From Marinoscillum pacificum (GTDB taxonomy: Bacteria; Bacteroidota; Bacteroidia; Cytophagales; Cyclobacteriaceae), in assembly GCF_024714495.1 (NCBI RefSeq), contig NZ_JAMZMJ010000006.1, positions 1 to 64,000 of the forward strand: a stretch of DNA of 64,000 bases, written 5' to 3'. Numbering within the stretch: position 1 is the first letter of the stretch; each line of letters begins with the position of its first letter. Shown piece after piece: positions 4,305 through 24,600 of the stretch. Under the pieces are notes generated by a model. It was given only the letters and a program-made list of their open reading frames with translations. It ran no database searches and was not told the DNA's origin. A program made the translations under genes and the position numbers.

Positions 4305-5812
4305 TGAAGCATATAATTCAAAACTTAATTGCAATTGTCATTTTATTCACATTTGCAGCGTGCGAAAGCCTCTTAGACAAAGATGTTGACGATGTAATAG
4401 GAGGAGAGCCGTTTACAACAGAAACCGGAATTGAAGAAGCGCTTCTAGGTGCATACAGTAACCTCGCAGGTACCTATGACGGTTTCGATGGTGGAGAACT
4501 TTTTGGTGGGGATTTTATTATTATTCCTTCATTATTAGCGGTTGAAAGTTCTTTAGAAGCGCAGTGGGACTTTCAGGAAACAAATTACTCTAATTTTTTA
4601 GAAGCAAGATCAAACGCTTCTGGAGGGTTAGATGCAACAAACTCCAGAATATCAGCAAATTGGAGAAGAGCTTATGAAACTATCAATCTGTTAAACAACA
4701 TCATTGCGAATATTAATGTGATCAATTCAACAGAAAACAAAAACAGAATTGAAGGTGAAGCCAAAGTCATGCGTGGACTTCTTTATTTCGAACTAGTTAG
4801 GCTTTGGGCACCTCAGCCTGATGAGTCCAATGGAAATACCCTGGCAATTCCACTAATTTTAGATCCAATTACTTCAGTTACTGATATAGAAACTCCTGTG
4901 AAAAGCACTTTGAACAGTATCTACACACAAGTAATTAACGATTTGGAGAGTGGAAGTCAGTTGTTAAAAGGCTTAAATCAAAATCCTGGCAATTTAAATT
5001 ATTATGCAGCCCAAGCATTTTTAATGAGAGTCAGCATGCAATTGAACAGACCTGAAGATGCAATAGTGTATGCCGATGAGGTATTGTCTGGTCCATACGA
5101 GTTAAACAGGACTCCACTCGATTGTTTTAACAATAACAACTTTTCTCCTGAAGATATATTTGGCATTATGCAAACTTCCAATGCAAACGCCGGAGGAGTA
5201 AACAGCGGTACTGGTATAACATATTTCTTCTCTTCTATAAACGGAGAAGGTGTCGGAGCATTCGGAATATCTGAAAGTTCACAGTTTCTAGAAAGTGATT
5301 TTTTTGATAATGGGCCGCAATTTTCTGATCAAGATCTGAGATATATTGTAAACGACGAAATAACGGAATCCACAAGTGCTGATGATGTAAATGCGCTGTA
5401 TACGAACAATATACAAAGACCGATATTTCTTTCCCCTGCTAAATATCTTACGAATAGCCATGTTATTCCTGTAATTCGTCTTGCAGAAATTTATTTAACA
5501 AGAGCTGAAGCAATATCCGACTCTGATATATTTTCAGTTGACCCGGAAGCAATTGATAATTTAAATACGGTTAGGACCAGAGCCGGGTTGGATGCCCTTG
5601 AAACTACCGATTTTTTAGGTAGTGATGGACCAGATGCGTTGTATGATTCGATTTTACTAGAAAGAAATCGAGAACTTCTATATGAGGGCCAATTATTTCA
5701 TGATTTAAAACGTCAAAATGGTCTGATTGGAACTTCTGATGCAAGAGATTCCCGATTTATTCTTCCTATTCCTGAATCGGAGTGTGAAGCGTCACCAGGA
5801 CTTTGTGATTAA
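4304..5812 (+). CDS. susD: SusD/RagB-family nutrient-binding outer-membrane lipoprotein
   Basis: A 502-residue protein starting in the ATAATG overlap with the SusC stop. The signal peptide ends in the lipobox 'FAAC', so Cys19 should be lipidated. 'ESLLDKDVDD' and 'FTTETGIEEALLGAYSNLAG' are the usual SusD N-terminal features. The middle carries TPR-like helices ('RIEGEAKVMRGLLYFELVRLWA'), and the C-terminal part has the SusD signatures 'VIPVIRLAEIYLTRAEA' and 'ILLERNRELLYEGQLFHDLKR'. It would form the lid over the SusC barrel and bind the ligand. The substrate is unknown because no degradative genes accompany the pair. The gene is followed within four bases by a strong terminator. Confidence 0.95.
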   Translation: MKHIIQNLIAIVILFTFAACESLLDKDVDDVIGGEPFTTETGIEEALLGAYSNLAGTYDGFDGGELFGGDFIIIPSLLAVESSLEAQWDFQETNYSNFLEARSNASGGLDATNSRISANWRRAYETINLLNNIIANINVINSTENKNRIEGEAKVMRGLLYFELVRLWAPQPDESNGNTLAIPLILDPITSVTDIETPVKSTLNSIYTQVINDLESGSQLLKGLNQNPGNLNYYAAQAFLMRVSMQLNRPEDAIVYADEVLSGPYELNRTPLDCFNNNNFSPEDIFGIMQTSNANAGGVNSGTGITYFFSSINGEGVGAFGISESSQFLESDFFDNGPQFSDQDLRYIVNDEITESTSADDVNALYTNNIQRPIFLSPAKYLTNSHVIPVIRLAEIYLTRAEAISDSDIFSVDPEAIDNLNTVRTRAGLDALETTDFLGSDGPDALYDSILLERNRELLYEGQLFHDLKRQNGLIGTSDARDSRFILPIPESECEASPGLCD

Positions 5813-8800: not shown

Positions 8801-11800
8801 TATTCACTGTTACGGTAGGAGCAGTTGCATCAATGTAGATTTCATCAGTACTCAAATCCGTTGCTGTCAGTGAGGTTTCCGGATTGGTTGCCTGTACAAT
8901 AACATCATGAAACCCATCAGCCAAATTTGAAATGGTACCTGATGGAACAGCCCATGTACCGTCTCCATTATTACTGGCTACATATTCTACCGCGTCTATT
9001 GTTACCAAAATCGTGGCGTTGTTTTGATTGATGGTACCTGTTATTTCTGGCCTTCTAATAGAGGTGCTATCCTTGTTAACAGTTATTACTGGGGGAAAAG
9101 GACCTGATTCTATCCAATTAGAACCTGATGTGAAGGTAAAGCCACTTAAGTTTCCATGATTTTCATTAATTGTCTTATCTGTTAATATGGAACCAGCACC
9201 ATCATCCATATCATAATATGCTATTAGGTTCTGTTCATCACCATTTAAGCGATCTGCACGATCAGTAAAGTCCGTTTTAGCGTAGGACCATAACCTGAAA
9301 TTATCCACCGTACTACCACCAGCCATTAGTGTCTGTAAACCTGAAACAGGAAATTCAATCGACTGGATAGCAGCTGTTCCTGAGACGTCCAAAATCCCGT
9401 CTACAAAAATTTGCATTGTATCGCCAGATCGTATGTACGCCATGTGGTGCCAATTACCATCTGATACAGGTGTATTGCCTGTTAAAAATGGTGTTGCTCC
9501 AGAGTTGGTAACTCGTGTAAAGTAATAGGGTCTACCATTTAATAGGGCAACAATAATTGTTTGAGGTTGACCACCACCATTCGTATCTGATTGTGTGAAA
9601 ATGTTAAACTGACCTGACGTATGGGTTGATTTGAGCCAAAATTCAATAGTATAATCAGCCCATGAGTTTTGAAGTCCATTATCAAAGTTTACCGTATTAC
9701 CACTTGCGAATTCTAGTGCAAAATCATCCGTTCCTAAAATGTCTCCATTAATTGACCACAAAAATTTTATCGTGAGACTATCTCTCGCAAAAGTAGCACC
9801 AGGTGAGTATGTGAGATCAGTAGCTCCGAATGCCACTTGATCTATAAGTGTCTGATTAGACCATCCGACTAGGGTGCGGTTATAGTTTAATGTATTTAGG
9901 CCGCTGTAACTCAACATGTCTGTTGCATCAGTCACGCTGCTCATGTCCCAGTCTCCTAAATCCTGATCAAAAGTATTAGCCTGATAAAAGGCATTAGACA
10001 TATCTGAAACCCCGGAAACATCCCATGTTGACAAATTCTGATTAAAATTAATGGCTCCACTAAACATTGAATTTATCGAAACAGCTGATGACATGTCCCA
10101 GCTAGATAAGTTTTGATTGAACGCTTCAGCTCCAGCAAACATCCCTTCAAAATCAACTACCGATGAAACATCCCAATTATTTAGAGATTGATTGAATACT
10201 GTACAGTTTCCAAATGCACGGCTCAAACTAGTGGTAGCTGTAAGGTTTGGTACATCTGCCGCTGTAACGTTCATGTTTGTACAACCCATGAATGCATTGG
10301 AAAATGTATTCCATGAAATATCTCCCCACTGTTCAACTGTTCTCAACTTTGGACCGTCTATCGCGCTACTGTTAAAATAAATAGCTGGAAAATCACCAAC
10401 AATTTCTACTTGATAAGTACTTCCATTTTCTAACCCTGAGATAACTTGGCTAGAAGATACATTTTCCAAAGCACCATCACCAACTCCTGTATTGGTCAAA
10501 TTGGTCCAGATAATATTATAATTATAGGTGTAATCGCCTGGATTAATTGGTATAGTGATGGACCCATCTGAAGTTATCCATGTGGTTATGAATGGGTCTG
10601 GCACCTGCACTAATGAATGATTACTAAAGATTGAGCTTCCATTAGAGGTGTTTGTACTGTTGACGAGCAATACATCTCCTTCGGATAGGCTTAGCTCATT
10701 CATTGACCAATTGCCACCTGAAACAGTTGTAGAACCAAGGTATTCCTGAGCCTGATATGGTAAGCAGCCACTATTGTCTCGATACACTTCTATTACATCT
10801 CCTTCAGCACATCCTGAGCAGGTTCCTGCTACTTTTCCAAGTGTCGATGCAAGGTTAATAATTGGTGCCGGTTGGTTGCCGTTTATACCTCCGTCTCTAG
10901 TCATTCCCTGATTATTACAGAAAAAGGAATTCTGAGACAGGTCCGTACCGGTACCACTGGCCAGGTCTAATGCCGCACCATCAATATATGCGAATGTATT
11001 ACCCGAAATCGTGTTGTTTCCTCCACCTCTCACATAAATGCCGACATATGGAGTTCCTAATCCTGAAGTACCAGTTACATCCGTTCCACACTTGTTATTT
11101 GTAATAATTGCCCGGTCATCTAATAAGATAATTGAGCCGTCACTTACTATCACATTATTTGAAATAGTTGTACCTGCGCCACTTCTGACAAACACACCGC
11201 TTCCACTTGTGGAAAGCTTTTGGGTTCCTGTAAAATCAGTGCCCAAGTAATTATGGTTAATCGTGGCGGTAACATCTGTTGTCACACCACCAATGATGAC
11301 ATTGCGTCCGTCACTTGACCCATTACCTACTGCATTTCCAGTACCCATAGAAATAAATATTCCCCCGTCGGTATTTGCTCTACCTACTGAACCTGAAAGG
11401 TCAGTTCCAATATAATTGTTAAGCACGGTTATTTGACCTCTTGTGTAAATACCATGTCCAGAATTGGAACTAATAATATTTCGCTCGCCAGGTGCCGTTC
11501 CACCAATGTTATGACCTGTAGAACCAATGCCATAAATACCAATGCCGTGATCTCCATTAGCTAGGGGAGTAGTTCCATCTGACTCCAAACCAATGATATT
11601 ACCTTTAATTGTCAAGTTATTGCCAGCGCTATGACGAATGCCTACTCCATTGCCACTAATGGTATTGCCTTTAGCGGAAGCACCAATTGTAGCATTCTCA
11701 GCACCAACCAAAATTCCATACGTATTGAATCCTCTAATTTCCAATCCATAAATTTCTACAGCTCCAGCGCCTATATTAATTCCTGTTGGTATTGATGCCC

Positions 11801-12128
11801 CATTATTCAAAATGATTTTGTCAGTGGAAGACCAGCCAGCCTGAGTAGTTGCATCAATGACTGTACCTGCTGCGGTTATTTGCGGTAATGCTGTAATCAA
11901 ATCAATCTGCCATGGAGCGGATGTACCTATATTGAATTGAATAATACTACCAGGGTCACCATTGGCTGTATTGATCGCGGCTCTTAATGAGCCTACTCCG
12001 CTATCATTTAGATTAGTTACCAAAATAGTTGCCTGGATTCCTTCCGATTTTGGAGTAGCGAATAAAAGACTTGCTGAAACACAAAGTATTAAAAATGACA
12101 ATGTGTTTTTGAGTTTCAAAAATGACAT
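5859..12128 (-). CDS. Large T9SS-secreted surface protein: beta-helix, BspA-like repeats, LamG, six Ig-like repeats, LRR, sorting domain
   Basis: A 2089-residue protein with a signal peptide of ~30 residues. Visible modules in order are: a right-handed beta-helix (~35-420) opened by 'VTNLNDSGVGSLRAAINTAN'; a BspA/DUF285-type block (~577-750) with recurrent 'NQNLSSWDMSS' and 'MFSGAINFNQNL'; a LamG/concanavalin-like domain (~800-1000); six Ig-like repeats of ~88 residues (~1010-1537) with 'GTIDDxxAxLxVTLNGxxF'; one LRR segment (~1550-1670); an Ig-like domain; and a prealbumin-like domain. Then come the conserved KVKRAGCSVRRF motif (~1900) and a T9SS type-A sorting domain (~2008-2089, 'FEVFPNPTSDWLNIDF'). 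It belongs to the five-member family here but has only one LRR/Ig unit in its tail instead of two. I infer a surface-anchored adhesin; the ligand is unknown. It converges on susD, and the shared hairpin at 5816 ends it. Confidence 0.9.
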   Translation of the reverse strand: MSFLKLKNTLSFLILCVSASLLFATPKSEGIQATILVTNLNDSGVGSLRAAINTANGDPGSIIQFNIGTSAPWQIDLITALPQITAAGTVIDATTQAGWSSTDKIILNNGASIPTGINIGAGAVEIYGLEIRGFNTYGILVGAENATIGASAKGNTISGNGVGIRHSAGNNLTIKGNIIGLESDGTTPLANGDHGIGIYGIGSTGHNIGGTAPGERNIISSNSGHGIYTRGQITVLNNYIGTDLSGSVGRANTDGGIFISMGTGNAVGNGSSDGRNVIIGGVTTDVTATINHNYLGTDFTGTQKLSTSGSGVFVRSGAGTTISNNVIVSDGSIILLDDRAIITNNKCGTDVTGTSGLGTPYVGIYVRGGGNNTISGNTFAYIDGAALDLASGTGTDLSQNSFFCNNQGMTRDGGINGNQPAPIINLASTLGKVAGTCSGCAEGDVIEVYRDNSGCLPYQAQEYLGSTTVSGGNWSMNELSLSEGDVLLVNSTNTSNGSSIFSNHSLVQVPDPFITTWITSDGSITIPINPGDYTYNYNIIWTNLTNTGVGDGALENVSSSQVISGLENGSTYQVEIVGDFPAIYFNSSAIDGPKLRTVEQWGDISWNTFSNAFMGCTNMNVTAADVPNLTATTSLSRAFGNCTVFNQSLNNWDVSSVVDFEGMFAGAEAFNQNLSSWDMSSAVSINSMFSGAINFNQNLSTWDVSGVSDMSNAFYQANTFDQDLGDWDMSSVTDATDMLSYSGLNTLNYNRTLVGWSNQTLIDQVAFGATDLTYSPGATFARDSLTIKFLWSINGDILGTDDFALEFASGNTVNFDNGLQNSWADYTIEFWLKSTHTSGQFNIFTQSDTNGGGQPQTIIVALLNGRPYYFTRVTNSGATPFLTGNTPVSDGNWHHMAYIRSGDTMQIFVDGILDVSGTAAIQSIEFPVSGLQTLMAGGSTVDNFRLWSYAKTDFTDRADRLNGDEQNLIAYYDMDDGAGSILTDKTINENHGNLSGFTFTSGSNWIESGPFPPVITVNKDSTSIRRPEITGTINQNNATILVTIDAVEYVASNNGDGTWAVPSGTISNLADGFHDVIVQATNPETSLTATDLSTDEIYIDATAPTVTVNTLFTTNLSPALNGTVNDIEAILSVTLNGETFAATNNGDSTWTIAGNIFSTLAEGSYDVEITATDPLGNVGNDSTTDELTIDLHAPQVTIDHSLANSSSPEITGTTDDPFATITVSIDGQTFLAINNENNTWRLPAGTLNDLSDGVYDIAVTATDRAGNEGMDNSSDELVIDSTVPIVAIDFLSTTNLSPTLSGTIDDTGAILQITLNDQTFSAIINDDGTWLVEAGTFSDLSEGVYDIVTTATDSAGNVATDETTNELIIDLTGPIITIDSLVINSPSPRLSGTIEETTATISVDLNGQSYSAVNNGDGTWSLDSGTVETLPDGVFDVVATGTDLLGNTLQDTTINELIIDLTAPDVTLDPLVTASISPTLTGTIDDIHATLTVTIEGIAYDATVSLDSSWSISEGTIASLEPMTYSAILRAEDTLGNTNTLTVQEAIIILSPAAPIVQDSLALITIYDSLAGDSWTEVTNWKSGLSISNWDGVTLNLVNDEIRVTKVNLSSNNVIGNFPIISRGLEALDSLDLSGNGLQGLPDLGGFSSLLFLNVAENSLEFDDLEPNIFVSNFLYSGQSIVGTSTEQFLSVGSTYEMSFDIGGELNNYQWMFVESGDTVAVGGQTSSSLTLENLTIDQNGHYFLIASNPILPELNIMSASQRITVTGNITISVINSKNEPTESGNARALKIREKGAPYDTLSTIEVQSGLFVFENLPLGDYLIVVDPESGEYLPTYFGNTDSWSEADTLQFRLNLETSIRLIDVPEGPQPTPGSTTVMGIVESDFISESNNGRVKARRKVKRAGCSVRRFVPKGRTDQEEGEFVLYAYVQSDDDGRFEFTNLENGTYRFNIDYPGIPMDPDSFIEFTLGPGGIEDDVLLLQALITENGIFVERIEQLSSGEMKDEFEVFPNPTSDWLNIDFSKSNLKDVTIQLMDLVGNVLDQIQIDVMKSKDFKIPVDDLTEGVYLLKVNSKKDTNYRATYKIIVSH
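7520..9100 (-). repeat. Six tandem Ig-like (Big-type) coding repeats
   Basis: Within the 2089-residue protein, six units of ~88 residues (about 264 bp) each run from a 'VTVNxLxTxxxSPxLxGTIDD' opening to 'ATDxxGN...TxELxID'. They are clearly diverged from each other, so this is an old expansion. Each unit also carries 'NNGDGTWxxxxGTxxxLxDGxYDV'. Such domains usually act as spacers that hold a binding head away from the cell surface. Confidence 0.75.
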
Positions 12129-12308: not shown

Positions 12309-13955
12309 CTAGAATTGCAGAACTATTTCAGACAAGGTCTTATCTTGATCTAACTTTTTCCTCAATCGATTTCTTGCCATCTTAACAGCTTGTACACTGA
12401 CTCCTGTCAATTCCGATATTTCTTTAACCTGCAAATTCATTTTAACATATGCCAGATGTCTCAGGTCATTAATACTTAGTTGTGGATATTGACGTTGTAA
12501 ACTCTCAAAAAACCTAGGATGAACATCTTCAAAAATCAATCTGAAATTCTCCCAATAGTTAGTGCTCGATCTATCAGAATGAATGAGTTTTTCTATTTTT
12601 TGTCGTAGCAAAGAATCTGAAGTTTCTTGGGTAAGTGAAGTGAGTTTCTCAATGCGTCTTTTATCTTTCAATAACGACGTTGCAAGTTTTCGATCTTTTT
12701 CTTCTTTCTCTTGCCTTAATCGATTTTCTCTATTTGCAGCGTGAGCTAACTCCAACTCTCTTCTCTTCGCCGATTCACTTGCTATAACATGATCCTTAAC
12801 CAGCTGTCGATAACTGACCGCCACTGCAATTGATAATATTAATACTTCGGCTATTGTTGCTAAAAATAAGCCATTACTAGACCAAAAACCTGGTGGTACT
12901 ACACCGAAATTTCTGAGCATGAACATGACAATTCCTAATGCATAAATAAACCATGCCGGAAACAAATATTTAGCAGTATTATTTCCTTTTAATGCATACA
13001 CAATTGTTATAATACAAAAGCTTATCACTTTAATAAAGCTTGCAGTACCAGATGTAAATAATGCTAAACGAAAGTTGACAAGCTGAATAAAAGGTGCAAT
13101 TAACATGAGAATTGCGAGCAAAAGAAGAAATATAGATAGCTTACCATGCTTAATACTTAAAATCTCTCGAGCAAATAAAATACTAAATATTCCACCCATA
13201 GATGCCATGGTGATTGGCATCATATTATAAACCGACGATAGGTTAGGTAGGACATACTGAAACCAATGTCCTGTTTGAGTCATGAAAAATATCAGGACTG
13301 CAAAAACATAAATCCCATAGTATAAATGGGTATTGACGCGAGTCACGATATATGAAACCATCCCCAAAATCACAGCTATTAATAAGACCCCGTAGGACAA
13401 CCCTTGAAAAATTCTTTGACTTTGTATGTGAGCAATCCAGTTTGACTCTGCATATGCATTAAGCGGGATAACGAAAATATTTCGCTCACCCTGAATTCTA
13501 AAGATTATGCTGTATTCCTTTGAAGTTTTAAGGTGTACTGGAAATGTAAACTCCGCTGTTTGAATCAATCTTTTTGAAAACTTGAAATCATCACCGGTTA
13601 ACTCATGATAAATAAGTGAATCTGCAACAAATACAAAACATTCAACACTATCCAATGGAGGATGAGCGATTTCGAAGTACCAATCTGATGGATGGGATTC
13701 ATTCACAATATCTAATCTCAACCAAACGGCACCATCAAAAAAATTAAGATTAGGCATTGGTGATTTTTGAACTTTCAAGTTCAAAAATTCATCTATGGTC
13801 AGATTTTCTGTTGAGTCTAAATACCATTGAAACTCACCATTAAGCTGCTCTGAAGAATATTCTCTATTACTCAGGTGTAGCTGTTGCGAATGGCATACCT
13901 GCGCAAAAAGCAAAATTAATATAATGAAAATCAGTCTTAAAATTTGAAGCATCAT
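12309..13955 (-). CDS. 7TMR-DISM membrane sensor fused to a C-terminal helix-turn-helix DNA-binding domain
   Basis: A 548-residue protein. Residues 1-23 are a signal peptide. Residues ~30-165 match the extracytoplasmic 7TMR-DISMED2 type of beta-sandwich ('FFDGAVWLRLDIVN', 'WYFEIAHPPLDSVECFV'). Residues ~175-385 contain the seven transmembrane helices of the 7TMR-DISM family. A charged coiled coil (~390-450) follows, and then a C-terminal helix-turn-helix (~480-548) with 'LSINDLRHLAYVKMNLQVKE' and 'VSVQAVKMARNRLRKKL'. No kinase domain is present, so it would act as a one-component regulator held in the inner membrane. It lies between two T9SS cargo genes, and its own upstream gap (65 bp) holds the terminator of the preceding gene. 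Ligand and target genes are unknown. Confidence 0.88.
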   Translation of the reverse strand: MMLQILRLIFIILILLFAQVCHSQQLHLSNREYSSEQLNGEFQWYLDSTENLTIDEFLNLKVQKSPMPNLNFFDGAVWLRLDIVNESHPSDWYFEIAHPPLDSVECFVFVADSLIYHELTGDDFKFSKRLIQTAEFTFPVHLKTSKEYSIIFRIQGERNIFVIPLNAYAESNWIAHIQSQRIFQGLSYGVLLIAVILGMVSYIVTRVNTHLYYGIYVFAVLIFFMTQTGHWFQYVLPNLSSVYNMMPITMASMGGIFSILFAREILSIKHGKLSIFLLLLAILMLIAPFIQLVNFRLALFTSGTASFIKVISFCIITIVYALKGNNTAKYLFPAWFIYALGIVMFMLRNFGVVPPGFWSSNGLFLATIAEVLILSIAVAVSYRQLVKDHVIASESAKRRELELAHAANRENRLRQEKEEKDRKLATSLLKDKRRIEKLTSLTQETSDSLLRQKIEKLIHSDRSSTNYWENFRLIFEDVHPRFFESLQRQYPQLSINDLRHLAYVKMNLQVKEISELTGVSVQAVKMARNRLRKKLDQDKTLSEIVLQF

Positions 13956-14020: not shown

Positions 14021-17000
14021 TCAATGATTGACAATCACTTTGAAGGTGGTGATGTTCTCTGAGCCTTTGCTCGAGTCTACAAAGTTGAGGATGTAGATAC
14101 CGCCGCTGATGCCACTCACGTCCATGTCCAGTTCCTGATTATTGCCTTTAGCAATCTGTTGCTCTCTGATCACATTGCCTTGTAAGTCTATCAAACGAAC
14201 CGTAACATCTGCACTCATCAGTTTGCCATAGCTGATTCTTACATAGCTGTCTGCTGGGTTAGGGTATACACTCAGGTCCTGGAAGTATTTTCTGTAGAAG
14301 CCTAAACGTTCGATCTTCTCTACCACAATCCCATCTTCTGTTACCGTAGCCTGTAAGATCAACTCTTCTTCTTCAATACCGCCTTCGCCAATCGTGAACT
14401 CTACATAAGAGTCTTCATCCATCGGGATACCTGGGTACTCGATGTTGAATCGATACAATCCTTCTTCCAAATCTGTGAACTCAAATAGCCCTTCATCATT
14501 GGATTGGACATAGGCATACAGCACAAACTCTCCGTCTTCCTGATCTGTTCTACCTTTAGGTACAAAGCGTCTAACTGAACATCCTGCTCGCTTCACTTTT
14601 CTTCTTGCTTCTATTCTGCCTCCTTCTTCTGCAAAGTCTGACTCTACTGTTCCGGATACTTCTGCTGTACCCTGGCCTTCGCCCGGGATTTGTGCCATGT
14701 TGAGTGTACCAAACCTGTCTTCTCTTAACAATAGTGTATCTGCTTCAGTCCACAGGTCAGTATTTCTATAATAAGTCGGTAAGAACTCTTCCAGGTTATC
14801 CGGTGCCACTGCAATCAGGTAATTGCCCAGTATCAGGTTCTCAAACAAGAATCCTTCTCCAGCTACTCCTCGTATCGCCTGAACAGTATCATAAGGCTGG
14901 CCTTTTGGCTTAACCATCAGTGCATAGCTCTCTCCAGCTATAAACTCTTCGCCTCCTAAGTCCAGTGCATTGAAGCCAAGGTCTGCCCACGCAAGGTGTG
15001 TCTGTGGCTCGCTTGTCAAGGTAAGGTCTGGCACCAGGCTGTTCATCACTCGCAGCTCATATTTACCCATGTTATCAAAGTTCAACGAGTCTATAGTGAA
15101 GGATGAAGCTGTCAGTGTATCGATCAATTGATCTTCGATCACCTGTGTGGTATAGTACCACTGGTAGGTGTTGTTAACTCCTCCAACTGGAAGGTCAATG
15201 GTTATAATAGATCCCACATCCATGGTATCTCTTACTGCTGTACCAAATAGCTGTTGATCCGCATAGTTTAGCGTAGTTAGCTCTGCATTAGGCTCCAGGT
15301 CTTCAAAGGTGAGTTTGTTACCTGATACATTCATTCCTGTCATATTGGGTAGGTACCCAACCAATTCAGGAAGTCCTTCTATATCATTATCCGATAGGTT
15401 AGCAGTCACTAAGCTCTGGATATCGGTGATGTCTTCTGGAAGTGTCCCTGACAATCCTGATGAGGATAAATCAATAGCGGAAACTCTGTTATTGGTAGTG
15501 GTCACCTCTGTCCATGCACTCATTGGTTGTGTTTTCCAATTGGTTAAGGTAGAGTTAGCTCCATTCAATGAATCATACACTGCAATAAGTGCTACAGAGT
15601 CTCGCTCAATACTAGATACTCTCAGCAATATTGGTGCAGTTGTCAGTTCCAACAATGGCACATTCGGATTTGTCACCTTCGCCACATACCGGCCATCAGC
15701 GGTAAAATCTTCGATAGTGACATCAAAACTTCCTGTGGTCTCTGTTAGAGTATTACCATTTTGAGTCCAACTGTATACATTATCTGTTCCTGTGATGGTT
15801 CTATCCAAAGTATAAGTAGCATCTATGGCCTGTAAGGTTCTAATGCGTTCTAGTAGTTCTTTCTGTGGAGCATACGTTACATCTGGGCCTGAGAAGACGA
15901 TAGGTTCTAAGGTTCCAAATTGTAAACGGTTATCTGAGATCCCCAAAGTAGCCAATGATGATAGATTAGATAAATCTCCAATGTCTGTCAGCTCATTGTT
16001 GCTCAAGTTCAGGTTCGTTACCTGTTCCAATCCTATTGGCATATCTGGAACTACTCCTACCAGATTGTTCAATGAGAGATTTACTTCTGTAACACGCTTT
16101 TCAAACAAGCTGATTCTTGCCCACTCATCCAGGTTAGCTGTTGTCCACCCTGTAGAGGTTGTCCAGTTGGCTCCACCGGCATTTTCATAAATGCTTATCA
16201 ATGCCAGGGAGTCCTGTACTCGCAAGGTCTCATCAAAATATCTTCCAATCGCATATATACCTGCGCCGCCTGGAGTCTCTGAAAGCACTGAGCCATCTGC
16301 TATGGTTCCTGTATTCACAGCCTTACCTAATCCTGTAAATCGCTCGCCTGTTGCTGAACCATAGGCAACACTAGCTTCAGCAATATCCGTTACTACCGTT
16401 TCATTGATCGACGGAAGTTGAATAACCGCACTGGTAAACGTGCCACTGACCTCACTTACCTGCCAATATTGATCTGTTGATACGTCAAGCAAACCATAGC
16501 CTGCCGTTCCTGTCGGGTCACCTGTGACATATCCAACTGCGATAACAGGAGTAGTCCCGCTTATCGACGAAAGCACAACTGGTGTATAAGTTGTCGCATC
16601 ACCAATTGGGTAAACCAAGGAATCGCTACCTGATCTGGCCAATGGACCCATGACATAGCTACCTGCTCCGAAGCCTTCAATATGGCCCCTCACTAATAGT
16701 CTGTTGGTATCGGTCACAATGGACGCGCTACTCAAAAACAAACTATCTACTGTTAAATTGCCATGTAAAGTCTTAAAGCCTCCTGAAGCATCCAATAGGG
16801 CTACCGTGTCGCCATTCAGATAAATATGTTGGTCCGCTCCGCCTGCTATCAAGGATCCATCACCATGGTAAGTAGATACCATCAGTGTATCCATAAAGGT
16901 CAGCATACCATCATTGCGCAAAGCAGAGGCTATCTGTAGCTTGCCAGAAACATTAACCTCTAAGCCACTGTCTATGCCTATCGATAGACCAGGGCCTACT

Positions 17001-17071
17001 ACGATCTGCTGAGCAGAGAGGTTAAGAGACCACAGCAGTGTCATTGATAAAAAATATCTAGAAATCTTCAT
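14021..17071 (-). CDS. T9SS-secreted LRR/Ig-like surface protein (cassette copy 1)
   Basis: A 1016-residue protein with signal peptide 1-20 ('LLWSLNLSAQ'). Residues ~21-280 are a beta-rich head containing 'GSYVMGPLARSGSDSLVYPI' and 'YWQVSE'. Two LRR/Ig-like units follow: LRR ~285-400 and ~490-620, each followed by an Ig-like domain. Next are a prealbumin-like domain ('FLPTYYRNTDLWTEADTLLL') and the motif domain with RRKVKRAGCSVRRF at residues 823-836. The end is a T9SS type-A sorting domain ('LSVYPNPADSYVRISYG'). I find only one cysteine in the whole protein, in that motif. It starts 8 bases after the 544-residue fibre-like gene, so the two are probably one operon. The 1017-residue protein at 39157-42210 has the same layout, with the motif at the same residue number. 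I infer a surface-exposed structural or adhesive protein. Confidence 0.92.
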   Translation of the reverse strand: MKISRYFLSMTLLWSLNLSAQQIVVGPGLSIGIDSGLEVNVSGKLQIASALRNDGMLTFMDTLMVSTYHGDGSLIAGGADQHIYLNGDTVALLDASGGFKTLHGNLTVDSLFLSSASIVTDTNRLLVRGHIEGFGAGSYVMGPLARSGSDSLVYPIGDATTYTPVVLSSISGTTPVIAVGYVTGDPTGTAGYGLLDVSTDQYWQVSEVSGTFTSAVIQLPSINETVVTDIAEASVAYGSATGERFTGLGKAVNTGTIADGSVLSETPGGAGIYAIGRYFDETLRVQDSLALISIYENAGGANWTTSTGWTTANLDEWARISLFEKRVTEVNLSLNNLVGVVPDMPIGLEQVTNLNLSNNELTDIGDLSNLSSLATLGISDNRLQFGTLEPIVFSGPDVTYAPQKELLERIRTLQAIDATYTLDRTITGTDNVYSWTQNGNTLTETTGSFDVTIEDFTADGRYVAKVTNPNVPLLELTTAPILLRVSSIERDSVALIAVYDSLNGANSTLTNWKTQPMSAWTEVTTTNNRVSAIDLSSSGLSGTLPEDITDIQSLVTANLSDNDIEGLPELVGYLPNMTGMNVSGNKLTFEDLEPNAELTTLNYADQQLFGTAVRDTMDVGSIITIDLPVGGVNNTYQWYYTTQVIEDQLIDTLTASSFTIDSLNFDNMGKYELRVMNSLVPDLTLTSEPQTHLAWADLGFNALDLGGEEFIAGESYALMVKPKGQPYDTVQAIRGVAGEGFLFENLILGNYLIAVAPDNLEEFLPTYYRNTDLWTEADTLLLREDRFGTLNMAQIPGEGQGTAEVSGTVESDFAEEGGRIEARRKVKRAGCSVRRFVPKGRTDQEDGEFVLYAYVQSNDEGLFEFTDLEEGLYRFNIEYPGIPMDEDSYVEFTIGEGGIEEEELILQATVTEDGIVVEKIERLGFYRKYFQDLSVYPNPADSYVRISYGKLMSADVTVRLIDLQGNVIREQQIAKGNNQELDMDVSGISGGIYILNFVDSSKGSENITTFKVIVNH

Positions 17072-17079
17072 GATATTAA

Positions 17080-18714
17080 TTACTGCGCAGCTGTGTTATA
17101 AACAGTCTCTACTGCCATCCAAAAACTACCATAAGATCTCAATGTTACAGATATGAGGCCCGTAGAACTCATCGCAAAAGAAGGACTGGCGTCACCTTCC
17201 ACGTTAATGTTTTCACCCTGCGTTAGAATCGTATGATTCGTGATATTTCCATAATCCCCAATTGAAATAATGATTTCTCTCCCAAGATTCGCTGAAGATA
17301 CCGGCAAAGTAATATTCTGCCCTCCTGCTGGAGCCGTCAAAACAATGATATGATCAGAGTCCTGAATATTACGGGTAGTCCCAGCTTCTTGTACAACATT
17401 TGAAAAAACTGCACCGTCAGTTGAATGATTACCTGTAATGGACAAAGAACTAGAAATGGTACTATTTAATTCGCCAAATGACGTTACAGACCCGTTGTTA
17501 TTAATCGATAGTCCTGCCCCGCTTCCACTATTTAAGATTTCAATGATATTATTGGTTGAGCCCGCATTGGTGTTTACAAATGTTGCCGCAGATCCAAGGC
17601 CATTCGAATTTATAATTAAGGTAGGGTTTGAATTTGATGGATTGGTTATCTCGAAGTAACCAGCTGTACCTGTTCCAGCAGTTCTCGCTGCCATTGCATT
17701 TTCATTATTGCCTGCACCGGTAATATTAAACTCTGCCGCCGTACCATTTCCATCATTATTCACATACAGTGCAGAAGAGCCAGTATTGTTAGAATTCGTA
17801 ACAATATTAACCGCGTTTGCCGTAGCAGCACTGTTATTCAAATTGAAATAGGCGACACTTCCGTCACCAATATTTTCCAAATCAAACAAATTTGTAGCAG
17901 CATTTACGGTTGATTGATATGGAAGGGACAATCCACTTGAAATATTCGTCCACTCCACCCCATCATAGAGATATAAGTCAGATGACTCATATGCCAACAT
18001 ACCAGATTGAATATCTGAGCTATCTCTAACGGATCCAATCTCCACTGCACCTCTAAATTCCGCATGATTATTAGCTTTCAATGTCAAACTACTGTTGATA
18101 TTTTCTGTAGCAAGTAGATCTGACTCTGCTGTGTTTGCGTCCGCGTATAAAAACTGAATTTCTCCATCAGGAGCCATATAAATGAAGCTAACTGGTCCAT
18201 CGACAGTATTTCGAAGTGTTGTACCATCAAAATATATATTGCTACCTATTACATTGCCCTCAATAGTGTTCGGAGATGTCACCAAGAAGTGAAACATATG
18301 AAAGTTTTCACCTACCTGAAACGCACTGACCGGGTTAGCCGTGCCTACACCTACATTACCCAGTTCATAAGAAATATTGGATGCAGAAGGTATCCAAGGC
18401 GAACTATTTGTATCTACATACGCTTCAGTTGCCGCTGGTACCCATTCACCAGTATACCAGAAATAAAGTATTCCTTCTGTAACATCAAACACCATCAACC
18501 CATTGTCAGCATTCGTCAGATTATCTGTAAAAGTTGCCGCAGTTCTTTGCGTTGTAGTATAACGCGGTATTAAAAAACCTTGATTACCAGATGGTGAAAC
18601 AATTTCCACAACAGCGTTAGGACTAGGAGTATCTGTACCAATACCCATTGAGTTTTGAGCGCTTACTCCAATTGCAGCAAGCATAATAGCGATGAATAAT
18701 TTACCCTTTTTCAT
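17080..18714 (-). CDS. Secreted fibre-like protein with solenoid-type repeats (cassette copy 1, first gene)
   Basis: A 544-residue protein with signal peptide 1-19 (MKKGKLFIAIMLAAIGVSAQ). The mature start 'NSMGIGTDTPSPNAVVEIVS' and following 'GFLIPRYTTTQRTAATFTDN' are shared with the 878-residue protein at 42207. The middle (~280-410) has glycine- and asparagine-rich short repeats such as 'GNGTAAEFNITGAGNNENA' and 'GLGSAATFVNTNAGSTNN', which suggest a beta-solenoid shaft. The C-terminus ('IIVLTAPAGGQNITLPVS') resembles the end domains of phage-tail-fibre-like proteins common in Bacteroidota. No T9SS sorting domain is visible, so it may reach the surface only with its operon partner; that is inference. 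It begins after a 253-bp gap with no other gene. Confidence 0.85.
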   Translation of the reverse strand: MKKGKLFIAIMLAAIGVSAQNSMGIGTDTPSPNAVVEIVSPSGNQGFLIPRYTTTQRTAATFTDNLTNADNGLMVFDVTEGILYFWYTGEWVPAATEAYVDTNSSPWIPSASNISYELGNVGVGTANPVSAFQVGENFHMFHFLVTSPNTIEGNVIGSNIYFDGTTLRNTVDGPVSFIYMAPDGEIQFLYADANTAESDLLATENINSSLTLKANNHAEFRGAVEIGSVRDSSDIQSGMLAYESSDLYLYDGVEWTNISSGLSLPYQSTVNAATNLFDLENIGDGSVAYFNLNNSAATANAVNIVTNSNNTGSSALYVNNDGNGTAAEFNITGAGNNENAMAARTAGTGTAGYFEITNPSNSNPTLIINSNGLGSAATFVNTNAGSTNNIIEILNSGSGAGLSINNNGSVTSFGELNSTISSSLSITGNHSTDGAVFSNVVQEAGTTRNIQDSDHIIVLTAPAGGQNITLPVSSANLGREIIISIGDYGNITNHTILTQGENINVEGDASPSFAMSSTGLISVTLRSYGSFWMAVETVYNTAAQ

Positions 18715-18967: not shown

Positions 18968-19660
18968 TTAAATTGTGAACAGAAACTCTTGAAGCTGGGT
19001 CTTGTAAGCTTTACCGATGGGCAGATGAACTTCATCTAAATGCACCATTCCTTCTGTAATGATATCTATGCGTTCAAAATTGATCAAATAAGACTTATGA
19101 ATTCGTATGAACCCTTTATCCATGAGTTTCTCCTCTGTCTTCTTTAATGTATGAGCCAGCATAAATTTCCCTTTGTCGGTATGCACCTTGCAATAATTAT
19201 CATCTGCCTCCACATAAATAATTTCACGTGGTGCCACCGCTACTAAATCCTGATTGTTTTTGACAAATAACTTATTGCTGGAAAAGCCTCCTGCTTTCTT
19301 CAATTTCATCAACGCCAAATCAATGTTGATTTTCAAATCTTGCTCATCAAATGGCTTGATAACATACGCTGCTGGAAAGGTGTGTTTTGCTCTATCTACT
19401 GTGGCTTTGTCATAATATGAGGTGATGTAGATAAATGAAATTTTGGCCTGATGCAATATTTCTCCCAGGTCAATGCCATCCTTATCGCTATCAAGATTAA
19501 CATCCAACAGGGTTAGGTCAGGCTTTTTTGAAAGAATCTCATCATGTGCTTTCTCAAATTTGCCAGACTGACCAATAACTTCATGACCCATATCTTCCAC
19601 ACAGAACACCAAATCCTGTCTAATGATTGGTTCGTCTTCTACAATGTAAATGCGGGCCAT
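18968..19660 (-). CDS. LytTR-type response regulator
   Basis: A 230-residue DNA-binding response regulator. The receiver domain (1-~122) has the acidic pair 'VEDE', the phospho-acceptor Asp53 in 'LTLLDVNLD', a conserved Thr80 in 'FIYITSYYD' and Lys102 in 'YVIKPF'. The LytTR domain (~135-230) shows 'IIYVEADDNYCKVHTDKGKF', 'FIRIHKSYLINFERID' and 'HLPIGKAYKTQLQEFL'. LytTR proteins bind pairs of short direct repeats about two helical turns apart. The start codon directly follows the stop of the histidine kinase, with no gap, so the two are co-transcribed and almost certainly partners. The targets are unknown; the 21-bp-spaced repeats at 44924-44972 are one candidate. Confidence 0.95.
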   Translation of the reverse strand: MARIYIVEDEPIIRQDLVFCVEDMGHEVIGQSGKFEKAHDEILSKKPDLTLLDVNLDSDKDGIDLGEILHQAKISFIYITSYYDKATVDRAKHTFPAAYVIKPFDEQDLKINIDLALMKLKKAGGFSSNKLFVKNNQDLVAVAPREIIYVEADDNYCKVHTDKGKFMLAHTLKKTEEKLMDKGFIRIHKSYLINFERIDIITEGMVHLDEVHLPIGKAYKTQLQEFLFTI

Positions 19661-21535
19661 TTATGCAAGTTTGTAATTTGAGACTTTTATTAGATAACGA
19701 GTTCCTTGATCATTGAATGATTGTACCGAAGCATCTAATTTCTCAGCCAAAGAGTCTATCAAAGTTAAACCAAATGAATTTTTTCCTGATGAGCTCTTTG
19801 TTTCAAACCCCACTCCATTGTCTGATACTTCCAGATTCAATGAATTCTCCTCCTCAAATAATTTAATTTTCAATTCACCGGTTTGATCTTCAGTAAAAGC
19901 GTACTTTAATGAATTCGTCAAGAGCTCATTGATAATTAATCCCAATGGAATAGCCGTGTCAATATCCAAAAGAATCGGAGACACTTCTTTGCTTATAGTT
20001 AAACGATCATTGGTAATTTTATAGGAAGATACCAGCGATGACATTAGGTTATCAATATACTCCGGCATGTCAATTCCTTCAATATTATCTTGCTGATATA
20101 ATTTTTGATGAATAAGCGCCATTGACTTTACTCGATTACGACCTTCCTGTACGGCATCTACTGCCGTTTGGTCTTTGATGAATCGCGCTTGAAGGTTTAA
20201 TAAACTAGAAATAATCTGAAGGTTGTTCTTAACCCGATGATGAATTTCTTTCAGTAGAATCTCTCGCTCTTTTAGAGCATTGGAGATTGTTGCATTTTTA
20301 TCACTTAAAGTTTTATTGAACTTACTTTTCTGAATTACCTGCCAAGATCCGAGCCCAATAACTACGAGCAATGCTACGATGGCAAAAATATACATGAGCT
20401 TTTCCGACTCTTGTTTATCTAACAACAGGACATTCTGCTCATTTTCAAAAGCAAGAGCTTCAATTTGCTTTTGTTTCAATTCTCCCTCATACTTCTTCTC
20501 CATTTCATTCAGTGAATTGATGGCTTCAATGTTGAGAAGTGAATCCTTAAATAACAAGTATTCTTTATGTTCTGCAAGAGATGCCTTGTAATCTCCCTTA
20601 AGTTCATACGCTTGATAAAGCAGTTCATGGGCATCGCGTATATAAGGCAACACCTCTCTTTCGATTGCCCTGGACACCATAGCCTTAGCTAGTGAAATTG
20701 CTTCATCTGGTTGTTTCTGAAGTATTTTAAGTCGGGCAAGATTAGAATAACCGGAAAGTGATACTTCTATGTTTCCAGTTTCATCTTGAATCATTTGCCG
20801 ATACAGCTTTTCGGCATTACCAAGCTTACCTTGTTCTTCATAGATTTCAGCCAAATTAATGGTATTGAAGCCCCTCAAATAATCATTATCATACTCTTCA
20901 ATGTATTTTGCCGCCTTTTTACTTGCCTCCTCCGCTTCCTGGTAATTTCCTTCATTAAGTGCAATAAAAGCCAGACCTACATAACAATATGCTAATTGAT
21001 CTCCATCATTAAGCTTAGTTGATAACTCAATACTCTGTTCGGTGAATTCACGAGCTCTATCTAACTGCCTCATATCAAAGTATATTCCCGAAAGATTGTA
21101 AATAATAGATGCATAAAATCTTATGCTAGCGCTATCCTGCTTATTTTCAACCACAGTCAGTGCCTTCTGAAAATGATCAAGTGACTCCTCGTTTCTACCT
21201 GTTCTTCGCAGTACATTGCCTATTCCACTATACCCTCGAGCTAATTGATAATGATCACCACCCTCCTTATTTAGAAAAATCACACGTTGAAAATAACTTA
21301 TCGCTGAATCTACTAAGCCCATAGTTCCATATGCGATCGCATATTGTAAGTAATATTCACTCTTCAATGTGTCAGAAGAGTGAGCAAACTCTTGCTTGTA
21401 ACTATTAAGAATTTCTATTTTCTCCAGTGGATTATCTATTGTATCTGCGGAATGAAGCTTAACAGACAAATCTTGGGCATGACCAAGGAAACAAAGACAT
21501 AGAAAAAATAGCGGTAAGGTAAATTTGTGATTCAT
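19661..21535 (-). CDS. TPR-containing membrane histidine kinase (HisKA_2 type)
   Basis: A 624-residue protein. Residues 1-20 are a signal peptide ending 'GHAQ'. About six or seven TPR units (~35-345) face the periplasm, for example 'ARGYSGIGNVLRRTGRNEES' and 'LAFIALNEGNYQEAEEASKK'. A coiled coil and one transmembrane helix (~380-402, 'LMYIFAIVALLVVIGLGSW') follow. The kinase core begins with 'EREILLKEIHHRVKNNLQII', with phospho-acceptor candidates His432/His433 as in the HisKA_2 family. The ATPase domain has the N box 'LIINELLTNSLKYAF', 'VSDNGVGF' and a 'GLTLIDSLAEKL' lid. It would sense protein-protein or envelope signals through the TPRs and phosphorylate the adjoining LytTR regulator. It sits between two T9SS cargo transcription units. 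Confidence 0.95.
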   Translation of the reverse strand: MNHKFTLPLFFLCLCFLGHAQDLSVKLHSADTIDNPLEKIEILNSYKQEFAHSSDTLKSEYYLQYAIAYGTMGLVDSAISYFQRVIFLNKEGGDHYQLARGYSGIGNVLRRTGRNEESLDHFQKALTVVENKQDSASIRFYASIIYNLSGIYFDMRQLDRAREFTEQSIELSTKLNDGDQLAYCYVGLAFIALNEGNYQEAEEASKKAAKYIEEYDNDYLRGFNTINLAEIYEEQGKLGNAEKLYRQMIQDETGNIEVSLSGYSNLARLKILQKQPDEAISLAKAMVSRAIEREVLPYIRDAHELLYQAYELKGDYKASLAEHKEYLLFKDSLLNIEAINSLNEMEKKYEGELKQKQIEALAFENEQNVLLLDKQESEKLMYIFAIVALLVVIGLGSWQVIQKSKFNKTLSDKNATISNALKEREILLKEIHHRVKNNLQIISSLLNLQARFIKDQTAVDAVQEGRNRVKSMALIHQKLYQQDNIEGIDMPEYIDNLMSSLVSSYKITNDRLTISKEVSPILLDIDTAIPLGLIINELLTNSLKYAFTEDQTGELKIKLFEEENSLNLEVSDNGVGFETKSSSGKNSFGLTLIDSLAEKLDASVQSFNDQGTRYLIKVSNYKLA

Positions 21536-21635: not shown

Positions 21636-24600
21636 TTAATGCTTCACAAAGACCTTAAATGTTGTGATTTTCTCTGCTCCTAAACTAGTGTCTACAAAAT
21701 TTAACAAGTAGATACCGTTGGTAATCTCACTAACATCAAAATCAAATTCTAAGTCGTTACCTTTCTCAATACGCTGCTCTTTCACAACTTTACCATCCAG
21801 GTCAATCAAACGCACTGTAACATTTGAACTGAGAAGTTTACCATAGCCAATAGTTAGATAGTTATCTGCCGGGTTTGGATAAACATTGAGGTCTTTGAAG
21901 TATTTTCTGTAAAACCCGAGTCTTTCAATTTTTTCAACGACAATACCATCTTCCGTAACGGTAGCCTGAAGTATCAATGACTCTTCTTCAATTCCTCCTT
22001 CACCTATAGTGAACTCAACAAAGGAGTCTTCGTCCATCGGTATACCAGGATACTCTATATTGAAGCGGTAACGGCCGCTTTCTAATTCAGTAAACTCGAA
22101 CTGCCCTTCATCGTCCGACTCCACATATGCGTAAAGTACGAACTCACCATCTTCCTCCTCTTGATCTGTTCTACCCTTAGGAACAAACCTACGTACGGAA
22201 CATGCCGCCCTTTTCACTTTTCTTCTCGCTTCTATTCTGCCTCCTTCACCTTCTGGAAAATCCGACTCTACAGTTCCAGAAACTGAAGCACCCGTTGTAC
22301 CTCCACCACCTTTGGCGCCTGGGTTTACGATCATGGATAAAGTCTCCGCTGAATCTCGGCGTAATCTCAATGTATCAGCAAATCTCCATCGATCATTGCT
22401 CTCAAAGTAGGTGGCTAAAAATTCATTATTGTTATTCGGAGCAACTGCGACCTTGTAATTATCTAATATCAAACCTTCAAAAACAAACGCTCCTGAAACG
22501 GTCTCACTAGTACGTTGAATAGTATCATACTTTTGCCCCACAGGTCTAATTTTCAATACTAAAGCCTCTGCAGTCGTAAATGGATCATCACCTTGATCCA
22601 GTGCAGTAATGCCGAGGGTCGCACTTGCCAGCACCTGCTGTGACTCACTCTTCAACACCAAATCTGGAACCAACTCGTTTGTCACTGAAAGTGTGTAAAC
22701 ACCCATTGTCTCATAATCAATACCAGATATTCCTAACGAAGATGTGGATGCTGAAGCCACCACGGCAGTATCTACCGGACTCATAAGGGTCCACTCATAA
22801 GCATTTGAGGTACCACCTACTGGAACATCAATAGTATAATCTGAACCTTCAGGAATCACCTCAGTCAGTGGAGATCCAACAAGTTGCTGATCGGAGTAAT
22901 CGATTCCTACTACAGCGGTATTTTCTTCTAAATCTTCAAAAGTCAATTTATTTCCAGAAACGTCAAAGCTTGTAAGACTAGGCAAGTAGCCTTCCAGATT
23001 AGGCAATCCATCAATATCATTTCCAGAAAGATCAACATTAATCAATCCTTTAACATCCGTGATATCCTCTGGTAAACTTCCTGTTAGTCCCACTTCAGGA
23101 GCAGAAAGACCAACAACACGGTTTCCGGTGATAGTAAGCTCTGGCCAATCCTGTACGGCTAATGAAGGCCAATCACTTAGACTAGAGTTGGCGCCATCCA
23201 TTGCATCGTAAACCGCTCTTAATGCTGCAGAGTCTCGTTCAATACTAGACACTCTCAACACAACCGGCTCAGTAGTAAGCTCTATAAGCGGAATTACCCC
23301 ACTGGTTACTTTAGCTACATAGGTACCATCAGCAGTAAAGTTTTCAATGGCAACATCGAAACTGGCAGTTGTCTGGGCAATTGCTACACCGTTTTTCGTC
23401 CAGGTATATATGTTAGCCGACCCAGATACCGCACGATCTACTGTATAAGTTGTGCCAATTTCCTCTAATGTTCTAACCTTACTCAATACCGTCTTTTGCG
23501 GAGAAACTGTAATTTCTGCGTCTCCAAAGAACAATACTTCAAGCGATGCAAATCCCAATTTATTTTCTGAAACATCGGCAGTCGATAAAGCTATCAGATT
23601 ACTTAAATCCAAAATACTGGTTATTTGATTGTCCTTTAGATTTAAAGAAGTTAATGCTTCAAGACCAGCTGTAATCGCAGGGAAATCGCCTTTCAAATTA
23701 TTCGATGACAAATCAAGAGCTGTTACTCTTGTATCCGTCATAGTTACTCCTGTCCATTCAGTCAATGGAACACTCTCTTTCCAATTTACGGCTGTCCAAT
23801 CAGCACCTGATAGGGCATCATATATCGAAAGAAGAGCTAAAGAATCTGCTTCTGTTTCTGGATCCTGACCTTCAGGTATATCATTAATGGTAATGGTCAA
23901 TGCAAATGTTGTTGAATTAATTCCATCAGTTAACCCTATGGAAAGATCAAACTGTGTTACCAACTCAAAATCAATATCTGCAGAATCACTAACTGTAATA
24001 ATTCCGTCCGTATCTCCAATAGCAAATGGCAAGTTGGAGTCCAGGTTGACATCCGTATTTCCGCTTTCTATACTCCAGGTGTATGTGGCACTTGTCGTAT
24101 CTGTATCTGTGAACTCCAGAGCTACCACCTCTGAACCTGCTGTGCTATTTTCAAATAGACTCACGGCTCCAGGATCAGTTATGACCGGAGTATTATCATT
24201 CACATCTAGTATGGTAATCTCCAAAATGTGTGAGACACTATTTGATAAACTATCGGCAGCTTCTAATACCAATTCATATACATTGTCTGTGTTGGCATCG
24301 GTTGGCACTTCAAAATCAGCAGCTGTTAATAATGACAATTGGCCGTCAGTCGTGATCTCAAAACTTGCTGCATCTGATCCACTTAAAGACCATGTTACGA
24401 TTTCTCCAGAAGAATAGGTATTAACAAGCGTAGTATTTTCATCTATTGAAACTAAAGTATCTCCAACTATGGAAGGAGGTATCGTATCCGCTGAAATGAT
24501 AGAGAAGAGATTTCCGTCTACCAGATCTGAAGTAAACTTATTTTTAGGATCTGCAACACCAAAGCTTTCTACTGGATCATTTACATCTAAACCGATATTG

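Follow-up and report, generated by a model that had tools for sequence, protein, structure and literature searches.

The first 64,000 nucleotides of contig NZ_JAMZMJ010000006.1 of Marinoscillum pacificum (assembly GCF_024714495.1; this whole stretch is referred to as the window) encode five surface or adhesin-like proteins that end in a common tail. Within this tail is a short Arg- and Lys-rich motif that is nearly invariant and contains a cysteine. The question raised by the locus is what holds this motif constant. An original prediction, made from the window alone, looked to the cysteine. The comparison described here points to the loop that follows it, which appears to be shared by the paralogues of one genome and to shift jointly between genomes. 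The best explanation of the whole, with a probability of about 0.5, is that the loop would be a recognition tag that is read, and less certainly cut, by an exported TPR-CHAT protein encoded in the same window. The five genes and their motifs are as follows.

5859 to 12128, minus strand: gene of a 2089-amino-acid adhesin-like protein, common tail
6330 to 6437, minus strand: motif in the 2089-amino-acid protein
14021 to 17071, minus strand: gene of a 1016-amino-acid surface protein
14498 to 14605, minus strand: motif (RRKVKRAGCSVRRFVPKGR...) at residues 823 to 858 of the 1016-amino-acid protein, with the loop VRRFVPKGR
21636 to 38990, minus strand: gene of a 5784-amino-acid adhesin-like protein, common tail
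22119 to 22226, minus strand: motif in the 5784-amino-acid protein, with Ala before the Cys and two extra Glu after the core
39157 to 42210, minus strand: gene of a 1017-amino-acid surface protein
39637 to 39744, minus strand: the same motif in the 1017-amino-acid protein
45029 to 58903, minus strand: gene of a 4624-amino-acid adhesin-like protein, common tail
45506 to 45613, minus strand: motif in the 4624-amino-acid protein, with Ala before the Cys

The 36-residue block (residues 823 to 858) does not differ at any residue between the 1016- and 1017-amino-acid proteins, referred to here as the cassette proteins. At the nucleotide level, 22 of 108 bases differ, in agreement with the count made at the outset; the changes affect 21 of 36 codons and are all synonymous. 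The positions first reported for the block are correct, while the coding strand is the minus strand and a plus-strand translation gives unrelated letters. The identical run extends to 38 residues and is the longest in the full alignment of the two proteins. Only three of 918 segments of 36 codons are fully identical, all of them overlapping the motif, and the mean identity is 0.57. For the same pair, the proportion of differing synonymous sites (pS) in the motif is 0.82, which is saturated, and that of nonsynonymous sites (pN) is 0.012. Outside the motif, pN is 0.08 in a short linker and 0.13 to 0.34 in other regions. The proposal of strong purifying selection, and not recent copying, is therefore upheld by a motif pN below that of the rest and by saturated silent sites. 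The motif is kept in all five window paralogues, as was claimed, with Ala in place of the Gly before the Cys in two of them, one of which has two extra Glu after the core. The whole genome holds nine copies, each with the Cys. Cys831 is the single cysteine of each cassette protein, also as claimed; the three giant paralogues contain 9, 12, and 10 cysteines, and the lone-cysteine statement is limited to the cassette pair.

By alignment, the motif is a core strand and the loop after it, part of a transthyretin-like domain that precedes a type IX secretion system (T9SS) sorting tail. In the 1016-amino-acid protein these are located as follows.

14300 to 14674, minus strand: transthyretin-like or CarboxypepD_reg-like domain holding the motif, limits approximate (weak PF13620, AlphaFold2, Foldseek, family alignment)
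14066 to 14269, minus strand: type A sorting domain (Por_Secre_tail) of the T9SS, residues 935 to 1002 (PF18962, 43 bits, cut-off 27; TIGR04183, 31.1 bits, cut-off 23)

A search of 196 genomes of the family gave domain matches in 37. From these, 117 unique domain rows were collected; 113 rows (35 genomes, 19 genera) cover the motif, and four lacking the motif region were dropped. Weak domain matches without the motif were found in G113 and G223, which are counted as having neither gene in the comparisons below. The G223 domain (genus g35) was read and contains no basic motif.

Across the 113 copies, the cysteine column contains Cys in 75, Val in 38, and no other residue. The 38 copies of this genus comprise 37 Cys and 1 Val. 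Of the other genera, eight have Cys only and nine Val only, and one is split by genome. Val forms often read GAGVSV where the Cys forms of this genus are mostly RAGCSV-like. The hydrophobic share is 100, 89, 100, and 100% at columns 21, 24, 26, and 28, and 17 and 4% at columns 25 and 27. This alternation places the Cys on the hydrophobic, or core, side of the strand. In a tree of the CHAT proteins described below, Cys genomes are nested among Val genomes (read by eye), and both copies of G153 are Val, which suggests a single gain of Cys from Val followed by a return to Val in G153.

A functional cysteine, serving as a disulfide, lipid, glycan, or metal site, was considered and rejected, and is judged very improbable. 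It would fit the retention of Cys in 37 of 38 copies of this genus, often as the sole cysteine, and the Arg or Lys at column 23 that accompanies the Cys in 73 of 75 copies. The 38 Val copies, the position on the hydrophobic side, and the one gain in a Val background with the G153 return argue against it, as does the absence of any Cys after the first 25 residues in four of the five complete Val-form proteins of 797 to 851 amino acids. The special role first given to the Cys was to be doubted if homologues commonly lost it, and common loss is what the family displays. Nor does the Cys stand out from the rest of the domain, where 20 columns have lower entropy than the Cys column (counted by eye; 21 if the often-empty column 1 is included). 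Because Val occupies the position in 38 of 113 copies and the side chain faces the hydrophobic side, Cys-specific chemistry is not supported, and the Cys is best described, from the alignment, as an interchangeable core residue for which Val is equivalent. A conserved lone cysteine can mislead in this way. The idea of a processing site, also raised at the outset, survives for the Arg-rich loop and not for the Cys.

The loop is defined here as columns 28 to 36 and was analysed in 38 copies from six congeneric genomes (G000, which is this genome, and G001 to G005). Clade labels were assigned by eye, and two divergent copies that do not form a clade were pooled under the label X in the loop-identity counts. 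The loop is VRRFVPKGR in all nine copies of this genome, [VI]RRFVPKGR in all eight of G003, [VI]RRFVPRGR in all seven of G004, MRRFVRRGR in all four of G001, and [ML]RRFVR[SA]GR in all six of G005. Three of the four G002 copies read MRRYTGSGR, and the divergent Val copy reads LRRFTGSGR. The two nearest genomes, G000 and G003, have a common signature. Loop identity is 0.952 between copies of the same genome and different clades (81 pairs) versus 0.750 between copies of different genomes and the same clade (177 pairs). At columns 33 and 34, identity is 1.00 and 0.96 within a genome versus 0.42 and 0.24 between genomes. The rest of the domain runs in the reverse direction, with 0.660 versus 0.776 at columns 46 to 73, 0.687 versus 0.781 at columns 74 to 91, and 0.426 versus 0.628 at columns 92 to 113, for a difference of −0.138 over columns 46 to 113 as a whole. 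When loops were shuffled within clades, none of 5000 trials reached the observed difference, a figure that is descriptive more than a p-value since the pairs are non-independent.

The crossing is repeated in three other genera. Loop identity within and between genomes is 1.000 (n = 6) and 0.741 (n = 12) in g35, 0.926 (n = 3) and 0.531 (n = 9) in g55, and 0.833 (n = 4) and 0.611 (n = 8) in g33. The rest of the domain is reversed in all three, except for columns 74 to 91 of g35 (0.815 versus 0.810). These alignments indicate that the paralogues of one genome are held to one loop, with small exceptions, and that the loops shift together between genomes.

Lineage-specific duplication alone was considered as the source of this pattern and rejected, as the groups defined by the flanking sequence cross species and gene order backs two of them. 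In the tree of the C-terminal flank, clade B contains one copy from each of the six species (support 0.999), and clade C is recovered at 0.999. A tree of the upstream region (at most 330 residues, 36 of 38 copies) again recovers clades B (0.999) and C (1.0), with A and D partly rearranged. Clade B copies have the same biosynthetic neighbours in G000, G001, G003, G004, and G005, and in G000 and G003 the clade C copy sits between the clade B copy and these neighbours. Clade A copies of 618 to 626 amino acids have a common neighbour set in G000, G003, G004, and G005. The conserved gene order supports orthology of clade B and of the 618- to 626-amino-acid clade A copies.

As a separate observation, conserved biosynthetic neighbours accompany the clade B adhesins together with a G114 copy (loci L074, L079, L084, L087, L091, and L226). 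These neighbours (named by eye) are 3-oxoacyl-synthase-like, methyltransferase-like, UbiA-like, and FAD-oxidoreductase-like genes.

A loop common to one genome could also arise without any partner, if very short gene-conversion tracts homogenised it; conversion is a known route to concerted evolution. The silent sites bear on this directly. Between copies of the same genome and different clades, the silent codon difference is 0.588 in the loop, 0.625 at columns 14 to 27, and 0.551 at columns 46 to 113. Between genomes the values are 0.671, 0.645, and 0.569, respectively, and random draws from each genome's own codon usage give an expected 0.689 in the loop and 0.591 at columns 46 to 113. In g35, g55, and g33 the silent difference is 0.614 at columns 24 to 38 and 0.548 at columns 46 to 113. 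The within-genome silent differences thus nearly match those between genomes and are not far below the random-codon expectation. Since silent sites within a genome are near saturation, recent conversion was rejected as the cause of the shared loop. In favour of conversion of some kind, the loop silent difference is lower within genomes than between them, and Arg34 of G004 is encoded by AGA in seven of seven copies, where AGA makes up 33% of Arg codons in the G004 genes sampled. The codons flanking Arg34 vary among the G004 copies, however, and the tracts would be only a few bases long. Homogenisation by such tracts is considered improbable as the sole cause.

A candidate for the partner is encoded near the end of the window, divergent from the 4624-amino-acid gene.

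59139 to 62372, plus strand: TPR-CHAT protein P0010, likely start ATG at 59196, proposed reader or protease of the loop (PF12770, TPR, catalytic motifs, co-occurrence, linkage)
61518 to 61742, plus strand: Arg/Gly-rich insert in the CHAT half, approximately residues 794 to 868, which marks the co-occurring subfamily
62109 to 62111, plus strand: Cys991, predicted catalytic cysteine

P0010 scores 194.7 bits against PF12770 (cut-off 24), which places it in the CHAT family, and contains TPR repeats, the motifs HIATHG and SACETG, and a signal-peptide-like N terminus (by eye). Its sole cysteine besides Cys991 is residue 33, in the signal-peptide region. Among 44 aligned CHAT proteins from inside and outside the subfamily, 43 contain the His motif and 42 contain SAC(E/Q)TG, with gaps in the rest. 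The 36 subfamily sequences form one clade among 47, with a support of 0.892 and no intruder. An RGxRG-type insert is present in 33 of the 36, and one of the remaining three is cut before the insert.

Of the 196 family genomes, 112 have a CHAT match of any kind at E 1e-30 or better, and 35 have this subfamily. The subfamily was delimited by a best place of at least 411 bits, the next genome scoring 319; the gap was read by eye, and the three best candidates per genome were scored. Both the motif domain and the subfamily CHAT are present in 34 genomes, the motif domain only in 1, the subfamily CHAT only in 1, and neither in 160 (Fisher p about 9e-36, relatedness ignored). Six genera (g6, g33, g35, g36, g55, and g115; read by eye) are mixed, with some genomes that have the two genes and others that lack both, which partly answers the objection of relatedness. 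A profile search of seven genomes with neither gene, drawn from five of the mixed genera, detected no motif-bearing domain; in these seven and G223, no CHAT place exceeded 244 bits when all candidates were scored. As a control, P0004 does not follow the pattern and is found in 4 of 196 genomes (E 1e-40). A second control, P0013, is found in 14 of 196 genomes (E 1e-30), three of them with the motif domain, and does not show the co-occurrence profile.

The two genes are also frequently linked. They lie within 30 kb of each other in 23 of the 34 genomes, and among 41 longer loci from 15 genomes, the TPR-CHAT cluster is the one that neighbours domain genes in most genomes (eight). The CHAT near a domain gene in G001 is not of the subfamily, and the subfamily member is on another contig. 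Of the 11 genomes outside the 23, six (G001, G002, G003, G004, G046, and G153) have the CHAT gene beside a very large reading frame that leaves the contig or sequence piece unfinished. G148 has no large frame beside its CHAT gene, and in G129 the sequence piece ends at the CHAT gene. Taken together, the sequence evidence indicates that one CHAT subfamily with a signal-peptide-like N terminus almost always accompanies the motif domain and is often linked to it.

A wider search at the level of the order covered 291 genomes, family members included, with up to the best 16 candidates scored per genome. At E 1e-6, 17 genomes match, of which six are family genomes with the motif and 11 are partial-profile matches. 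Ten of these 11 begin at profile position 38 or later; the other, G082, covers positions 17 to 76 and is ordinary. Four of the 11 partial matches were read (G061, G237, G082, and one of two G363 places), and none contains the basic motif. Within this search, the motif-bearing domain was not found outside the family.

CHAT proteins belong to the clan of caspases, gingipains, and separases, in which cleavage after Arg or Lys is known for several members. Cutting at an Arg-rich loop is plausible for this reason. In the proposed mechanism, the loop would be read as a tag by one exported protein, most likely the TPR-CHAT protein, and a single reader would keep all tags of a genome in step. The domain is acidic over columns 37 to 113 (mean net charge −14.5) and basic over columns 14 to 36 (+8.5), and the conserved Arg and Lys near the Cys would give it a basic face for docking. 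Less certainly, the CHAT would be a cysteine protease of clan CD whose cut falls in the loop or close to it. Such a cut would part the adhesin body from the side with the sorting tail, with release or maturation of the adhesin as a likely outcome. The full key-and-lock form of this mechanism remains tentative: every giant T9SS adhesin of a genome would bear the same Arg-rich key, a single exported TPR-CHAT protease per genome would read and cut it and so control release or maturation of the whole set, and keys would drift between species together with the lock.

Several points weigh against reading by the CHAT protein. The signs of conversion in the silent sites and the uniform AGA of G004 leave room for some old or partial conversion. 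The co-occurrence and loop pair statistics were computed without correction for relatedness, and the CHAT cut-off was set after the list had been viewed, on the three best candidates per genome only. G114 has two domain copies and no subfamily CHAT, its best CHAT scoring 214 bits (77 of 97 candidates scored). G055 has a subfamily CHAT without the domain, also by profile, in a genome that is 82% complete. In the G005 assembly, the giant frame beside the CHAT gene ends in repeats and has neither the domain nor a sorting tail. Other-family CHATs of G246, G253, and G078 score 410 to 511 bits without a motif domain; they are placed outside the subfamily clade and do not have the insert. The CHAT protein itself lacks a sorting tail and would therefore probably be periplasmic, while the mature cargo would be on the surface. 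When compared genome by genome, the CHAT insert does not contain the loop sequence of its own genome. A direct match between loop and insert was rejected for this reason: IPRG in the G000 insert beside VPKG in its loop is suggestive, and the other genomes do not follow.

The same loop pattern would be expected if a different shared partner read it. Candidates are a sortase-type enzyme, a component of the T9SS, and the polysaccharide or lipopolysaccharide (LPS) on the surface of the species itself. Any of these could account for a genome-specific signature common to all paralogues. The basic columns could bind polysaccharide or LPS, and type A cargo is described as joined covalently to anionic LPS (PMC9143113). 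The two G114 copies have matching loops in the absence of a subfamily CHAT, which also fits. A different partner leaves unexplained why a single CHAT subfamily co-occurs almost perfectly with the domain and is linked to it, and core T9SS parts would serve cargo without the domain as well. Net charge is not conserved at the variable positions, which read PK, PR, RR, RS, or GS. A partner of this kind is regarded as unlikely.

Loop compatibility could also be forced by the paralogues themselves, if they bind one another in a shared fibre or coat. Up to nine co-encoded copies carry one signature, and transthyretin-like domains can oligomerise. Genomes with a single motif copy in the family search (G007, G036, G144, G126, and G209) retain a basic motif, and mutual binding, like a different partner, does not explain the link to CHAT; it is considered improbable. 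Reading of the loop by the TPR-CHAT protein is preferred to these alternatives.

The domain assignment itself carries a caveat. The common tail ends all five window proteins, and the motif-bearing domain is approximately 180 residues from the C-terminus. Two prealbumin-like stretches precede the sorting domain (by eye), the second of which holds the motif. Three of the proteins were scanned (P0002, P0003, and P0006), and their sorting domains score 43, 45.4, and 49.3 bits against PF18962 (cut-off 27), as for type A cargo. A [YFW]xNP box is present in 104 of the 113 family copies, and the other nine contain PVP or HPNP variants (by eye). Upstream of the sorting domain, the three scanned proteins contain LRR- and Ig-like stretches, partly below cut-off. 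The 2089-amino-acid protein (5859 to 12128) contains DUF285, Big_13, and laminin-G-like domains upstream of the common tail. The PF13620 gathering score of 32.3 is not reached in any of the three proteins (15.1, 24.3, and 17.3 bits), and the nearest Pfam models (CarboxypepD_reg, SpaA, and SdrD_B; PF13620, PF17802, and PF17210) are all below their cut-offs. An AlphaFold2 model of the domain alone is mediocre (pLDDT 59.4, pTM 0.54) and places the Cys in a strand; a model of the 327-residue tail is poor (pLDDT 53). With the mediocre model as query, the best Foldseek matches are transthyretin and are not significant (3djr, TMq 0.53, probability 0.87, E 0.61). A sequence search of solved structures gave no convincing match (best E 0.03). 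The domain is described as transthyretin-like within these limits.

The features of this locus can be set beside several known systems. LapG releases LapA-type adhesins in other bacteria. As is proposed here, a single exported cysteine protease acts there on large adhesins with a common site, cleavage in the present case being conjectural. LapG and the T1SS retention module of its substrates contrast with the CHAT clan and the T9SS tail of this locus, and the proposed site is close to the opposite terminus. The three scanned proteins resemble T9SS cargo with a type A C-terminal domain (CTD) in having a signal-peptide-like N terminus (by eye), a large body, and a type A sorting domain. They differ in the extra motif-bearing transthyretin-like domain before the sorting domain and in its genome-specific loop. 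The second half of that domain, DDxGxFxFxxLxxGxYRxxIxYPG, is like CarboxypepD_reg and other transthyretin-like domains, as are the many Val forms with GAGVSV. It is set apart by its strongly basic strand and loop, by scores below the cut-offs, and by the lack of a significant structural match. PorP-like partners accompany type B CTD cargo (PMC9143113); they are likewise partners for a subset of T9SS cargo, whereas here the cargo is type A and the candidate partner is a TPR-CHAT protein. Craspase, of the type III-E CRISPR systems, has a TPR-CHAT protease (Csx29) with a dedicated protein substrate (PMC9729208, PMC11106740). P0010 has the same TPR plus CHAT architecture and differs in its signal-peptide-like start, its T9SS adhesin neighbours, and its Arg/Gly-rich insert. 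No gRAMP/Cas7-11 effector or Csx30 was noticed among the window proteins read or scanned, and no dedicated search was made for them. In the literature searched, no paper combined a CHAT domain with type IX secretion, papers naming transthyretin-like together with type IX secretion had type VI secretion titles, and those pairing TPR-CHAT with Arg had CRISPR or gene-editing titles.

Other genes were noted around the adhesin cluster. Each cassette gene is preceded by a gene for a tail-fibre-like protein ("NSMGIGTDTPSPNAV"), located at 17080 to 18714 (minus strand) before 14021 to 17071 and at 42207 to 44843 (minus strand) before 39157 to 42210. These proteins have no recognised sorting tail and belong to two neighbour clusters (c1 and c2) of seven genomes each. 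The tail-fibre-like gene and the gene of the tail protein of about 1017 amino acids form a possible two-gene surface cassette. The 878-amino-acid fibre-like protein (42207 to 44843) has an extended stretch of "NSTAISTNTSDIASNATAIS"-type repeats that are nearly identical. Between adhesin genes, 18968 to 21535 encodes a pair that looks, by eye, like a TPR histidine kinase and a LytTR response regulator; the same pair is near domain genes in G003 and G004. A 7TMR-DISM receptor with a weak HTH-like C-terminus is encoded between two adhesin genes at 12309 to 13955, and similar proteins are present in 4 of 196 family genomes. The edge of the cluster, at 1287 to 5812, holds a SusC/SusD-like pair (by eye); SusC-like genes are near domain genes in G001, G002, G004, and G005. 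Directly after the TPR-CHAT gene, at 62414 to 63628, is an M43-type metalloprotease with its own T9SS sorting tail.

It is unusual to see one loop change jointly in a genome's four to nine old paralogues while silent sites are close to saturation, and the pattern is read as a sign that many proteins follow a shared partner. If the CHAT protein is that partner, the adhesins would be a candidate substrate set for exported bacterial TPR-CHAT proteins, and bacteria with a T9SS might control a whole set of giant adhesins with one enzyme.

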